In this document: positions 8,621 through 60,872 of the stretch, one piece after another
Position numbering within the stretch: position 1 is the first letter of the stretch
How the letters are laid out: every line of letters begins with the position of its first letter
Source of the DNA: Flavobacteriaceae bacterium LSUCC0859
Lineage (GTDB): Bacteria; Bacteroidota; Bacteroidia; Flavobacteriales; Flavobacteriaceae
Reading direction: 5' to 3'
DNA: 64,000 nucleotides
Assembly: GCA_022239325.1 (NCBI GenBank)
Contig: JAKOGP010000003.1
Span: 1 to 64,000, forward strand
Position numbers and translations under genes: made by a program
The notes under the pieces: model-generated
Databases searched by the model: none
What the model saw: only the letters and a program-made list of their open reading frames with translations
Told to the model about the DNA's origin: nothing

Positions 8621-9406
8621 ATGAATGTAGCCTTTAGTAAATATCAAGGAACTGGAAATGATTTTGTGATCATTGACAATCGGGATTTGACTTTTCCCAA
8701 AGAAAATCACAATTTAATTCGGGTTTTATGTGACAGACGCTTTGGAATTGGCGCGGATGGTCTTATGCTTTTAGAAGCGGAACCTGGATATGATTTTAAA
8801 ATGATTTATTTTAATTCAGATGGTCACCAAAGTAGTATGTGTGGAAATGGAGGGCGCTGTCTGGTGGCATTTGCAAAAAAAATAGGTTTAATTTCATCTA
8901 AAGCTTTTTTTTTAGCTCCTGACGGCCCTCATAGCGCTCATTTTCATGGGGAAGAAGTTTGTCTGGGAATGTCTGATGTAAGTGAGGTGTCCAAAAAGAA
9001 TGAGACCTTTTTTCTGGACACAGGTTCTCCACATCATGTTCAATTTGTTTCAGATTTAGACCTTCTAGATGTAAAAAAGGAGGGACTCAAACTAAGATAT
9101 GGTCTCTATGGTGCTACAGGGGCTAATATTAATTTTGTCTCTACGCTACCCCTCGGATTTAAAATGAGAACCTACGAGCGTGGTGTAGAAGACGAAACAC
9201 TTTCATGTGGGACCGGTGTTACAGCAGTAGCCATATCTATTTATGAGCAAAACCCAAATCAATCCCTTCCCATTCTTATTCAAACCCTTGGTGGGGAATT
9301 AAAGGTGCACTTTATTAAGAGTAAAAGCGCGTATACAGACATTGTATTGCAGGGCCCAGCTCAGTTTGTTTTTGAAGGTAATTTTAAAATAGATGAGATA
9401 TCTTAG
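8621..9406 (+). CDS. dapF: Diaminopimelate epimerase
   Basis: DapF interconverts LL- and meso-diaminopimelate, the last step before lysine and the cross-linking residue of peptidoglycan. The family start (MNVAFSKYQGTGNDFVIID) fixes the ATG at 8621. The two catalytic cysteines are seen in SSMCGNGGRC near residue 72 and in ETLSCGTGVTA near residue 194. The length of about 261 residues is normal. The gene overlaps the downstream acetyltransferase by 14 bases, so translation is probably coupled. Confidence 0.96.
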   Translation: MNVAFSKYQGTGNDFVIIDNRDLTFPKENHNLIRVLCDRRFGIGADGLMLLEAEPGYDFKMIYFNSDGHQSSMCGNGGRCLVAFAKKIGLISSKAFFLAPDGPHSAHFHGEEVCLGMSDVSEVSKKNETFFLDTGSPHHVQFVSDLDLLDVKKEGLKLRYGLYGATGANINFVSTLPLGFKMRTYERGVEDETLSCGTGVTAVAISIYEQNPNQSLPILIQTLGGELKVHFIKSKSAYTDIVLQGPAQFVFEGNFKIDEIS

Positions 9407-14091: not shown

Positions 14092-14499
14092 ATGATTAGT
14101 TCAAAAAAAAATATAGAAATTAGATATGGAGAAACAGACCAGATGGGTGTTGTTTATCACGGTAGCTATCCAGCTTATTTAGAGATAGGTAGGATAGATT
14201 GGTTGGCTCAAATGGGGTTTTCATATGCTCAGATGGAACGCGATGGTCATATACTTCCTGTGGTGTCTCTTCAAATAGATTTTAATAAATCATTGTATTT
14301 TGGAGACACCCTTAGCTTAGAAACTCGATTGTTAAAAATACCTCAGGTTAAAATTGAATTTGAATACCGACTAATCAATCAAAAAGGAGAGCTCATTGGG
14401 ACGGCCAAAACTACTTTAGCTTTTATGAACAAACATACCTATAAGCCCATTGCCTGTCCTGAGGGATTGCTAAAGAAAATTAAGGCTACTCAGATTTAG
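14092..14499 (+). CDS. Acyl-CoA thioesterase, hotdog fold (YbgC/FadM type)
   Basis: The enzyme is expected to hydrolyse an acyl-CoA thioester in the cytoplasm. The 135-residue protein carries the 4HBT signature RYGETDQMGVVYHGSYPAYLEIGRID (about residues 11-36), where the aspartate near residue 15 is the usual catalytic residue. The last 27 codons lie in the first copy of an 80-base tandem duplication, and its TAG stop is formed at the junction with the second copy. Without the duplication the frame would have continued for three more residues (HLI) to a TAA at 14586. Confidence 0.9.
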   Translation: MISSKKNIEIRYGETDQMGVVYHGSYPAYLEIGRIDWLAQMGFSYAQMERDGHILPVVSLQIDFNKSLYFGDTLSLETRLLKIPQVKIEFEYRLINQKGELIGTAKTTLAFMNKHTYKPIACPEGLLKKIKATQI

Positions 14500-14574
14500 C
14501 TTTTATGAACAAACTTGCCTTTAAGCCTATTCTCTGTCTGGAGGGATTGCTAAAGAGAATTAAGGCTACTCAGA
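14415..14574. repeat. 80-bp tandem duplication at the thioesterase/yigZ convergent junction
   Basis: Copy one (14415-14494) is the 3' end of the thioesterase gene. Copy two (14495-14574) follows with no spacer and differs at nine positions by eye (71 of 80 identical). Copy two still has an open frame from an ATG at 14505 to TAA at 14588. The stop codon and last three codons of yigZ (minus strand) fall inside copy two. The nine differences show that the event is not very recent. Confidence 0.92.
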
Positions 14575-15171
14575 TACATTTAATTTAATATCTCTGTGAT
14601 CTCTAATAGTTTTCTCAAATTCTGCTGAAATGTCTAGAGGGATCTCAATTAAAATCTCACATAGATTACCAAGCTTTTGATCTAAGATCACAGCATGCTG
14701 TTGTTTAATGAGCCTCATTAATACATGAAGCTTTGGATAAGTGACGGATAATTTATAAGATTTTTTGATTTTCCTTTTTACAATTTTGGCCTGTTCCAAA
14801 GCTCCCTGTGCTGCTGTTTTGTATGCACTTATTAGCCCGCCACTTCCAAGTTTTACACCTCCAAACTCTCTCACTACCACAACAGCTGTATAGCTGAGAT
14901 TAAAGGATTGAATTTGCCCATATATTGGAGCAGCTGCAGTATTGTTAGGTTCACCGTCATCATTTTTTCTTGAAATCTCTGGGTGTATCCCCATGCTCCA
15001 AGCGTAACAAAAATGATTGGCATTTGGATGGTCAGATTGCAACTTTTCTATAAACACTTTTAAATCTGCCTCTTTGTACAAGGGGATGGCATACCCCCAA
15101 AACTTGCTTTTCTTTTCTTTGTGTAAAAAAGCTTCAGTAGGATTGGAAAGGGTGTGAAATTCAGAGGTCAA
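14566..15171 (-). CDS. YigZ/IMPACT family protein
   Basis: The 201-residue protein has the N-terminal IMPACT (UPF0029) domain with YKEADLKVFIEKLQ and HFCYAWSMG near residue 55, DDGEPNNTAAAPIYGQI near residue 75, and REFGGVKLGSGGLISAYK near residue 102, then a C-terminal DUF1949-type domain. The biochemical role is unsettled; eukaryotic IMPACT regulates the kinase GCN2. The start overlaps the ribD 3' end by 11 bases, so it is translated from the same message. Its final residues VSE and stop lie in the second copy of an 80-base duplication. Confidence 0.9.
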   Translation of the reverse strand: MTSEFHTLSNPTEAFLHKEKKSKFWGYAIPLYKEADLKVFIEKLQSDHPNANHFCYAWSMGIHPEISRKNDDGEPNNTAAAPIYGQIQSFNLSYTAVVVVREFGGVKLGSGGLISAYKTAAQGALEQAKIVKRKIKKSYKLSVTYPKLHVLMRLIKQQHAVILDQKLGNLCEILIEIPLDISAEFEKTIRDHRDIKLNVSE

Positions 15172-58429: not shown

Positions 58430-59974
58430 ATGACAAATCTACATAAAGATCCTTTGTTTATACTGGTAAAATCGCTTTCGAAATCAGAAAAGCGACAGTT
58501 CAAGTTGTACGTTGGCAGATTGGGGGTCAATTCAGATGCCAAATTTCTTGCCTTATTTAACCTCCTTGACAAGTCTAAGGTATATGATGAGAAACAGATT
58601 TTAGACCATAAAATTGTTACAAAATCTCAACTCTCTAATTTAAAAGCTCATTTATACAAACAAATTTTAATCTCTTTGAGGTTAAATCCGGTGAATCAAA
58701 ATATTAGAGTTCAGCTGAGAGAACAATTAGATTTTGCAACCATACTTTACCAAAAAGGCTTGTACAAGCAAAGTCTCAAAATTTTAGATAAGGCCAAGTC
58801 TTTAGCCATAGAGCAGCAAGAGAAAAATATTGCATTTGAAATTGTAGAGTTAGAAAAGGTCATAGAAACACAGTATATCACCAGAAGCATTCCAGACAGA
58901 GCAGACGAGCTGGCCTCCCAGGCTATGGATTTATCCTCTCAGAACCTCCTGGCAAGCAAACTCTCCAATTTATCTCTACAACTATATGGGATGATGCTTA
59001 AAGTAGGTTATGTTCGTTCTGACAAGGATCTAGATCAGGTAAAAAAATACTTTGAAAATAATCTTCCTGATGTAGAGCTTCATCAATTGGGATTTAAAGA
59101 AAAACTTTGGCTTTACAAGGCCCACCTTTGGTATAGTTTTCTCATTCAAGATTTTTTATCATGCTACAAGTACGCCTCTAAATGGGTCCAGCTTTTTATA
59201 GATCAGAAAGAGATGGTGCAAATGCACCCAGTATTTTATATAAAGGGAAATAACTACCTTTTAGAGTCCTTGTTTTATGTTAAATACGGTACCCAATTTA
59301 AGGAGACCCTAGAGCATATGGAAGCCGTCATGAATAGTGATTTCTTCCCAAAGAATGACAATATTTCCTCATTATCCTTTCTCTATTTAAACTCCAATAA
59401 ACTCAATCTACATTTTTTGGAAGGTACCTTTAAGCAAGGACTCTACCTTGTTAATGCTATTAATTACGGCATAGATAAGCATCAGGATAGATTAGATCAG
59501 CACCACATTATGCTTTTGTATTACAAAATTGCTTGTTTGTATTTTGGAGTGGGTGACCATAAAAACTGCATTGTATATCTCAAGAAAATAATCTTTAACA
59601 AGCAACTCAAAATGCGTGAAGACCTTATGTGCTTTGCACGGGTCTTAAGTTTGGTAGCACATTATGAGTCTGGCATGGATTATCATTTGGAAGTACAACT
59701 CAAAAGCACCTATAAGTTCTTGCTTAAAATGAATGACTTACACGCGGTTCAAAAAGAGATGATTGTCTTCCTAAGAAGCCTGGCTCAGATATATCCTGCA
59801 GACTTGCCAGAAGCATTCAGAACACTGTATGTGAAGCTCAAAGTATATGAAAATCATCCCTATGAAAAGAGAGCTTTTTTGTACCTAGATATTTTATCTT
59901 GGCTGGAAAGCCATTTGTCCAACAGACCCGTTGCAGAAATCATCAGGGAAAAGGCCCTAGAGCAGCTTCGTTAA
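58430..59974 (+). CDS. Helical-repeat (TPR-like) protein of unknown function
   Basis: The 514-residue protein has no signal peptide. It is mostly alpha-helical with TPR-like spacing, for example LDFATILYQKGLYKQSLKILDKA near residue 100 and MLLYYKIACLYFGVGDHKNCIVYLK near residue 365. The start (LFILVKSLSKSEKRQFKLYVG, near residue 9) is a strongly charged helix. I recognise it as a conserved type in flavobacteria but cannot assign a function. It stands alone, divergent from leuA. Confidence 0.72.
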   Translation: MTNLHKDPLFILVKSLSKSEKRQFKLYVGRLGVNSDAKFLALFNLLDKSKVYDEKQILDHKIVTKSQLSNLKAHLYKQILISLRLNPVNQNIRVQLREQLDFATILYQKGLYKQSLKILDKAKSLAIEQQEKNIAFEIVELEKVIETQYITRSIPDRADELASQAMDLSSQNLLASKLSNLSLQLYGMMLKVGYVRSDKDLDQVKKYFENNLPDVELHQLGFKEKLWLYKAHLWYSFLIQDFLSCYKYASKWVQLFIDQKEMVQMHPVFYIKGNNYLLESLFYVKYGTQFKETLEHMEAVMNSDFFPKNDNISSLSFLYLNSNKLNLHFLEGTFKQGLYLVNAINYGIDKHQDRLDQHHIMLLYYKIACLYFGVGDHKNCIVYLKKIIFNKQLKMREDLMCFARVLSLVAHYESGMDYHLEVQLKSTYKFLLKMNDLHAVQKEMIVFLRSLAQIYPADLPEAFRTLYVKLKVYENHPYEKRAFLYLDILSWLESHLSNRPVAEIIREKALEQLR

Positions 59975-59991: not shown

Positions 59992-60198
59992 TAAATTGGC
60001 GCTCCAAGCTTACTTTACCTTTGCTAATTAAAAGAGTATTTACATGATTTGTGCTCCGTCCATTTCAACCTTACAAGCCAACTTCAATTTCGCTGCTTTA
60101 AAGAGTAACTACATAATTTTTGATCCCTCCGTTGTAACCCTAAAGTTACCTACCCCTTTGCTACATTAAAGAGAACCTACATGATTTTTGCTCCGTTC
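59992..60198. repeat. Degenerate tandem repeat, about 68 bp, of the pseudouridine synthase 3' end
   Basis: Units start with AAAGAG at 60031, 60100 and 60168, spaced 69 and 68 bases. Over the first 31 bases they share 25-26 positions between the third unit and each of the others. A shorter, more decayed fourth unit may precede 60030. The third unit holds the stop and last codons of the RluA-family gene on the minus strand (NGAKIM). The others, read the same way, encode EGSKIM and DGAQIM, each followed by a stop. The array fills the 202-base gap between two convergent genes. Confidence 0.82.
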
Positions 60199-60872
60199 GC
60201 TGCGGCTCTCCATAACGCACAGTCTCTTGGAGGTGGTGCCACAATATCTATATGTGTTTTTTTAACTGGATGAATAAAGGATAAGCGACGGGCGTGAAGG
60301 TGAATACTGCCATTAGAGTTAGAACGATCTGCACCGTATTTTAAGTCTCCTTTTATATGACAATTTACAGCGGCTAATTGAGCTCTTATTTGGTGGTGCC
60401 TACCAGTTAAAAGATTTATTTCCAGTAGGTTGTAACGGTCTAGTTCTTTTAGTATTTTAAATTCTAAACTGGATAATTTAGACTCAGGAACCTCCTTAAG
60501 GTGGGCATAAGACTTGTTTTGTTTGGGATTCCTACGGAGCCAATGTACCAAAGTGCCTGAAGCTGCCAAGCTGTTCTTTTGAACTATGGCCCAGTAAATT
60601 TTGCGAGCGTCTTTTTGAGCAAAAAGAGCATTCATTCTTGGTAATACCTTGGAAGTTTTGGCAAAAATGACAATGCCAGAAGTTGGTCTGTCTAATCGGT
60701 GCGGTACACCAAGATACACATTGCCAGGTTTTTGGTCTCGATTTTTGATAAAAGATTTGAGTTGTTCGCTTAGAGGGATATCGCCAGTTTTGTCTCCTTG
60801 TACCAGAGTACCTGGAGCCTTATTAATAGCTATAAGGTGGTTGTCTTCATATAAAATATCCAATGTTTCCAA
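60177..60872 (-). CDS. RluA family pseudouridine synthase
   Basis: The 231-residue enzyme isomerises uridine to pseudouridine in an RNA target. The catalytic aspartate lies in VPHRLDRPTSGIVIFAKT near residue 56. ILYEDNHLIAINKAPGTLVQ near residue 6 and LLTGRHHQIRAQLAAV near residue 152 are family motifs. It lacks an N-terminal S4 domain, as in the RluA/RluC-like short forms; whether the target is rRNA or tRNA is unclear. The last codons lie in a repeat unit. panB is upstream on the same strand, 11 bases away. Confidence 0.92.
   Translation of the reverse strand: METLDILYEDNHLIAINKAPGTLVQGDKTGDIPLSEQLKSFIKNRDQKPGNVYLGVPHRLDRPTSGIVIFAKTSKVLPRMNALFAQKDARKIYWAIVQKNSLAASGTLVHWLRRNPKQNKSYAHLKEVPESKLSSLEFKILKELDRYNLLEINLLTGRHHQIRAQLAAVNCHIKGDLKYGADRSNSNGSIHLHARRLSFIHPVKKTHIDIVAPPPRDCALWRAAANGAKIM

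Follow-up and report, generated by a model that had tools for sequence, protein, structure and literature searches.

A decayed three-unit tandem array at the end of a pseudouridine synthase gene, and short tandem copies at other gene 3' ends of the same genome

Downstream of an RluA-type pseudouridine synthase gene lies an array of three head-to-tail units of 68-69 bases (minus strand, positions 60005-60211 of the window, the whole stretch of 64,000 nucleotides that was analyzed), and tandem copies of gene ends recur at other 3' edges across the sampled part of the same genome. The array is probably an ordinary short tandem duplication that survived past stop codons, of a kind that forms, or escapes removal, more frequently in this lineage. 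This reading draws directly on the units themselves, on the short, array-free gaps of relatives, on the excess of copy-bearing 3' edges in the sample, on the difference between 3' and 5' edges and on the fit of array positions to random placement.

The units follow one another at spacings of 69 and 68 bases. Unit 1 (60143-60211, minus strand) comprises the final 35 bases of the gene, including the stop codon (60177-60179), and 34 bases downstream; units 2 (60074-60142) and 3 (60005-60073), on the same strand, lie inside the gap. Pairwise identities are 46/68 (units 1 and 2), 46/68 (units 1 and 3) and 50/69 (units 2 and 3), corresponding to 68-72%. The first-pass annotation, made from the sequence alone, had described three units at 68-69-base spacing, each ending G-x-x-I-M-stop, and both the units and the translated ends NGAKIM, EGSKIM and DGAQIM, each followed by a stop, were found. 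It had also named alignment against shuffled sequence as a check: the best ungapped 69-base lagged match in the gap (50/69) lies well above 500 first-order Markov shuffles (mean 31.3, maximum 39). Adjacent head-to-tail copies beyond chance are what define a short tandem duplication or minisatellite array, and they are present at 60005-60211. A sequence-only model of the three units, run against the whole genome, scores them at E = 8e-20 to 3e-18, a match by construction. Tandem Repeats Finder, at a minimum score of 30, gave no entry at this array.

The G+C content falls from 0.46 in unit 1 to 0.38 in unit 2 and 0.33 in unit 3. Compared with unit 1, units 2 and 3 carry 12 and 13 G/C-to-A/T differences, versus 6 and 4 in the opposite direction. 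Such A+T enrichment would be expected for copies freed from selection. We hypothesize that a segment of about 69 bases, running from the end of the RluA-type gene into the adjoining downstream sequence, was duplicated in tandem, that at least one further copying step gave three units, and that substitutions, mostly toward A+T, then eroded the copies in the gap. The duplication step may have been slippage or template switching; replication slippage is compatible with the data.

The gene (60177-60872, minus strand) was labeled 'RluA family' in the first-pass annotation, and its Pfam assignment is pseudouridine synthase (PF00849, PseudoU_synth_2, E 2.8e-32); the encoded protein ends in ALWRAAANGAKIM. 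The array sits in the convergent gap between this gene and a 514-codon gene without a Pfam match (58430-59974, plus strand), which adjoins the RluA-type gene in many relatives too. The closest named records to the locus are from Flavobacteriaceae. Six genomes of the same genus keep the pair side by side (loci L003-L006, L008 and L011, from genomes G011, G007, G009, G004, G003 and G010), as does an uncultured bin (L039) that is possibly one of the six species. In all seven, the gap from the RluA stop to the end of the match to the neighbor is about 5-34 bases, which is less than one unit. Across all 70 loci other than that of the window in which the neighbor was found, the gap is at most 34 bases in 35, 86-293 bases in 4 and more than 500 bases in 31, so that a long gap is in itself not unusual in the family. 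The duplication that gave rise to the array presumably postdates the split from the sampled relatives.

The end of the protein is also atypical. In 83 of the 88 other homologues whose C termini could be read, the protein ends 3-6 residues past a conserved tryptophan, versus 10 residues in the window protein (one of 90 homologues, L065, lacks the motif used for reading tails and was left out). Three others also run 10 residues past the tryptophan, with different tails, and the IM ending is found only in the window protein. The longer tail therefore indicates that the RluA-type gene now ends in repeat-unit sequence absent from its nearest relatives. The gene's own 3' end had been taken as the first unit, with the copies lying beyond the stop. 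The stop does lie inside unit 1, but the 'own end' is partly new sequence, which speaks to some degree against the duplication account, and the events may have occurred in more than one order.

Interspersed repeats are common at the ends of bacterial genes, and the array could in principle have arisen by insertion of a mobile or REP-type dispersed repeat at the gene end. Dispersed repeats of the REP/BIME or MIRU type are recognized as the same sequence at several sites in a genome. The array unit, however, has no second site in its own genome at E <= 0.001 by DNA search (11 chance-level matches at E 0.4-5.3), and the model search returned just the three units and one weak 37-base match (E 0.07). 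Eleven relatives from the genus yielded a single weak match, in G008 (E 0.06). Although two other sites in the sample share a palindrome-rich motif, the arrays at 3' edges have only a single 13-base match in common once one duplicated locus is set aside. Mycobacterial interspersed repetitive units, which measure 40-100 bases and are copies of one sequence family, resemble the present arrays in their location in gaps and their contact with stop codons; they differ in that the arrays here share no sequence. The genome and relative searches thus contradict insertion of a dispersed element, to which we give hardly any credence. An origin from a phage or plasmid was dropped as well, the unit being absent from the plasmid and phage records searched. 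Layouts resembling attC sites or diversity-generating retroelements were considered by eye only.

Maintenance by selection, as an RNA hairpin, a terminator or a set of binding sites, would agree with the observation that the best-conserved part of the three units is the stretch around the stop (consensus AAAATCATGTAG and TACTCTTTAA). Single units, however, show no greater folding stability than shuffled sequences, whichever strand is taken (z -0.09 to 1.69), the sole Rfam match (E 0.42) is far under the gathering score and lies outside the units, no promoter-like site was found and the one terminator-like site is also outside the units. Moreover, the relatives with the shortest gaps are too tight to hold a unit. 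A structured RNA element was dropped on the folding and Rfam results, and we consider a functional element of any of these kinds very unlikely; we see no function of its own for the array.

A gene-edge test places the array among other cases. We sampled 80 stretches of 20 kb plus the window, covering together about three quarters of the genome (1.664 of 2.169 Mb). Uncurated gene calls came from a simple script, and the edges tested were those facing gaps of at least 25 bases. An edge was counted when a copy of the gene end, displaced by 20-249 bases and straddling or abutting the edge, scored 18 or more in an ungapped comparison (+1/-1). In the own genome, 20 of 768 3' edges carry a tandem copy, compared with 0 of 768 in shuffles, in support of the recurring process that the first-pass annotation had suggested. 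One locus (L150) is itself duplicated and was counted once in the tests, leaving 19 independent cases. Shuffles were made once per edge for the own genome, G004 and the family loci, and 1 of 2902 shuffled edges passed at score 18 (a 5' edge of G004).

The comparators are few and unequal, consisting of parts of two genomes of the genus, one neighborhood across 80 species and, for E. coli, 250 kb, and copy-bearing 3' edges are rare in all of them: 1/384 in G004, 0/143 in G003, 0/203 at 80 named Flavobacteriaceae loci around the RluA-type gene and 0/127 in five stretches of E. coli K-12. The own frequency of 19/768 differs from the 1/730 of G004, G003 and the family loci together (p = 4e-5), and from the 1/527 of the two genomes of the genus alone (p = 8e-4). 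Expressed as fractions, 2.5% of 3' edges bear copies in the own genome versus 0.1-0.2% in the comparators (1/857 and 1/527), a loose ratio because the comparators contribute a single event. At a stricter score of 24, 13 of 768 3' edges remain in the own genome, 0 of 384 in G004 and 0 of 203 at the family loci. The median gap at tested edges is alike throughout (86 bases in the own genome, 76 in G004, 69 in G003 and 99 at the family loci). Tandem repeats wholly within coding sequence number 12 in the own sample, 1 in G004, 0 in G003, 0 at the 80 family loci and 1 in the 250 kb of E. coli; we dropped them as support for a general excess, the own set being by eye largely domain repeats and low-complexity stretches.

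For 11 of the 19 loci, tblastn found a best match in the G004 stretches (not checked reciprocally), and in the 10 with a called gap the gene orientation is the same. The gap is shorter in G004 in nine of these ten (for example 7 versus 155, 24 versus 208 and 30 versus 202 bases), the exception measuring 144 bases in G004 and 142 in the own genome. None of the ten is the one 3' hit of G004.

The 5' edges behave differently. Copies were found at 2 of 854 5' edges in the own genome and at 2 of 1029 in the comparators (1/436 in G004, 1/193 in G003, 0/257 at the family loci and 0/143 in E. coli), and the difference between the 19 own 3' cases and the own 5' edges is pronounced (p = 6e-5). In our preferred account, in which short tandem duplications persist past stop codons, duplications of about 20-125 bases would arise at many places in the genome. 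Duplications that begin within a few tens of bases of a gene's end and extend beyond its stop would alter the protein little or not at all and would be retained, and those across start sites would disturb translation and mostly be lost. Selection would then act as the filter between the two kinds of edge.

Alternatively, the 3' ends of genes may be favored starting points for duplication, for example at sites of transcription termination at which replication encounters RNA polymerase. The strong excess of 3' over 5' edges in the own genome agrees with such a hot spot at transcription ends, as does the lack of any excess of its 5' edges over comparators. A raised mutation rate alone should lift the 5' edges as well, unless selection removes nearly all of these duplications; they are not lifted, and some room is therefore left for a process at transcript ends. 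However, selection against changes at start sites accounts for the 3'/5' difference equally well, and some arrays lie entirely within gaps. Copy-bearing edges are nominally richer in convergent gaps (11/298) than in co-directional gaps (8/470), but not significantly so (p = 0.10), and the tie to convergent gaps proposed in the first-pass annotation is not clearly supported. Special inclusion of the stop codon in the repeat units is not supported either: among arrays scoring 22 or more, 14 of 20 overlap the 3' end of a gene, versus 13.3 expected from a rough model in which units are dropped randomly into flanks of inferred earlier sizes. From the 25 rows, this placement test omitted five: two from divergent gaps, a near-identical tRNA-like pair, a palindrome-rich motif and one copy of L150. 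Inclusion of the stop follows from a unit length close to the gap length. We therefore regard a hot spot at transcription ends as unlikely; in the earlier reading, the duplication of gene 3' ends was real and recurrent, and its target, convergent gaps and the stop codon, seems to have been misread.

Any single array is ordinary and can be explained without new machinery, but such an account does not explain the excess in the own genome, where duplications either arise more often or are removed less often. We speculate that the lineage could be a 'tandem duplicator', with a much higher rate of short (about 20-125 base) duplication than its sister species, caused by a heritable change in replication or repair that leaves mutS1, recJ and the exonuclease domain of polA in place, and with its record surviving at gene 3' ends. 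We put this forward tentatively and consider it somewhat less probable than its negation. Among the own genome and 11 genus relatives, mutS1 is above cut-off in 10 of 12, recJ is present in 11 and the polA 5'-3' exonuclease domain in 11, the own genome included each time, and Ku was found in 0 of 12. The large subunit of exonuclease VII (xseA, TIGR00237) gave no match in 11 of 12, namely the own genome and 10 of the 11 relatives, in a search that matched 12 of 14 control genomes; it is missing also in G004 and G003, both of which are without the 3'-edge excess. None of these five sets the own genome apart from these relatives. If the excess holds in complete genomes, it would provide a natural example of a bacterium in which short tandem duplication occurs at a raised rate. 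Such duplication would lengthen gene tails and gaps, and its cause could be sought by comparing related species.

Close tandem duplications and minisatellite (VNTR) loci of bacteria consist of head-to-tail units of tens of bases in two to several copies. The arrays described here resemble them in arrangement, unit length, low copy number and location in gaps and at gene ends; they differ in that the units of the window array are already only 68-72% alike and in that the own genome is richer in gene-end cases than the sampled relatives. In archaeal Borg elements, independent tandem repeat arrays are likewise reported throughout a single replicon, and the first units there fall partly within gene ends (PMC9879509). 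The Borg repeats are perfect there and many lie in reading frames, whereas those here are mostly imperfect, have two to about six copies and reside on a bacterial chromosome. Short tandem duplications also include the flap-related internal tandem duplications of yeast and human cells, which reportedly increase when the processing of replication flaps is faulty (PMC13202174); that system is eukaryotic, whereas the own genome here retains the polA 5'-3' exonuclease domain. Among the literature matches listed, no gene-tail duplications of this kind are recognized in Bacteroidota, which is no proof of absence.

The arrays have periods of 21 to 123 bases, and 10 of 20 lags are divisible by three; the window array was scored in the edge test at lag 137, equal to two periods. 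A second duplicated 3' end had been claimed within the window, and it is real: a thioesterase-superfamily gene (14092-14499) carries an 80-base tandem duplication at 14415-14575 (plus strand, period 80, 88-89% identical). Here the present stop was itself made by the duplication. Because a length of 80 bases does not divide evenly by three, translation enters the second copy in a different frame and, judged by eye, meets ATT TAG at its start, which supplies the present stop.

Elsewhere in the sample, a 75-base unit at L131 (8811-8985) gives a second tail, with DLFEAKQAAEAQ before the first stop and DLFEAKQGVKVQ before the second. The copied tail (8886-8960) opens with ATG right after the stop (TAAATG) and forms a 24-codon open frame, for which translation by re-initiation is possible. 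L127 has a doubled tail, YVGDALWGSGVIAQ followed by YVGDALWGSAVIAR, each before a stop, and L125 (17380-17562) contains about six decayed 30-base units. At L150 (555-715 and 1387-1547), a 160-codon gene and its downstream 53-base array are duplicated together, 832 bases apart and identical over the 221 bases compared. The palindrome-rich motif AGCGAGCGCAGCGAAGCTAAT occurs, on either strand, twice at each of two sites (L155 18057-18181 and L125 896-999) and is perhaps a dispersed repeat. Finally, L135 (12870-13073) holds two adjoining 104-base copies, identical over their first 100 bases, which resemble a putative tRNA gene pair.
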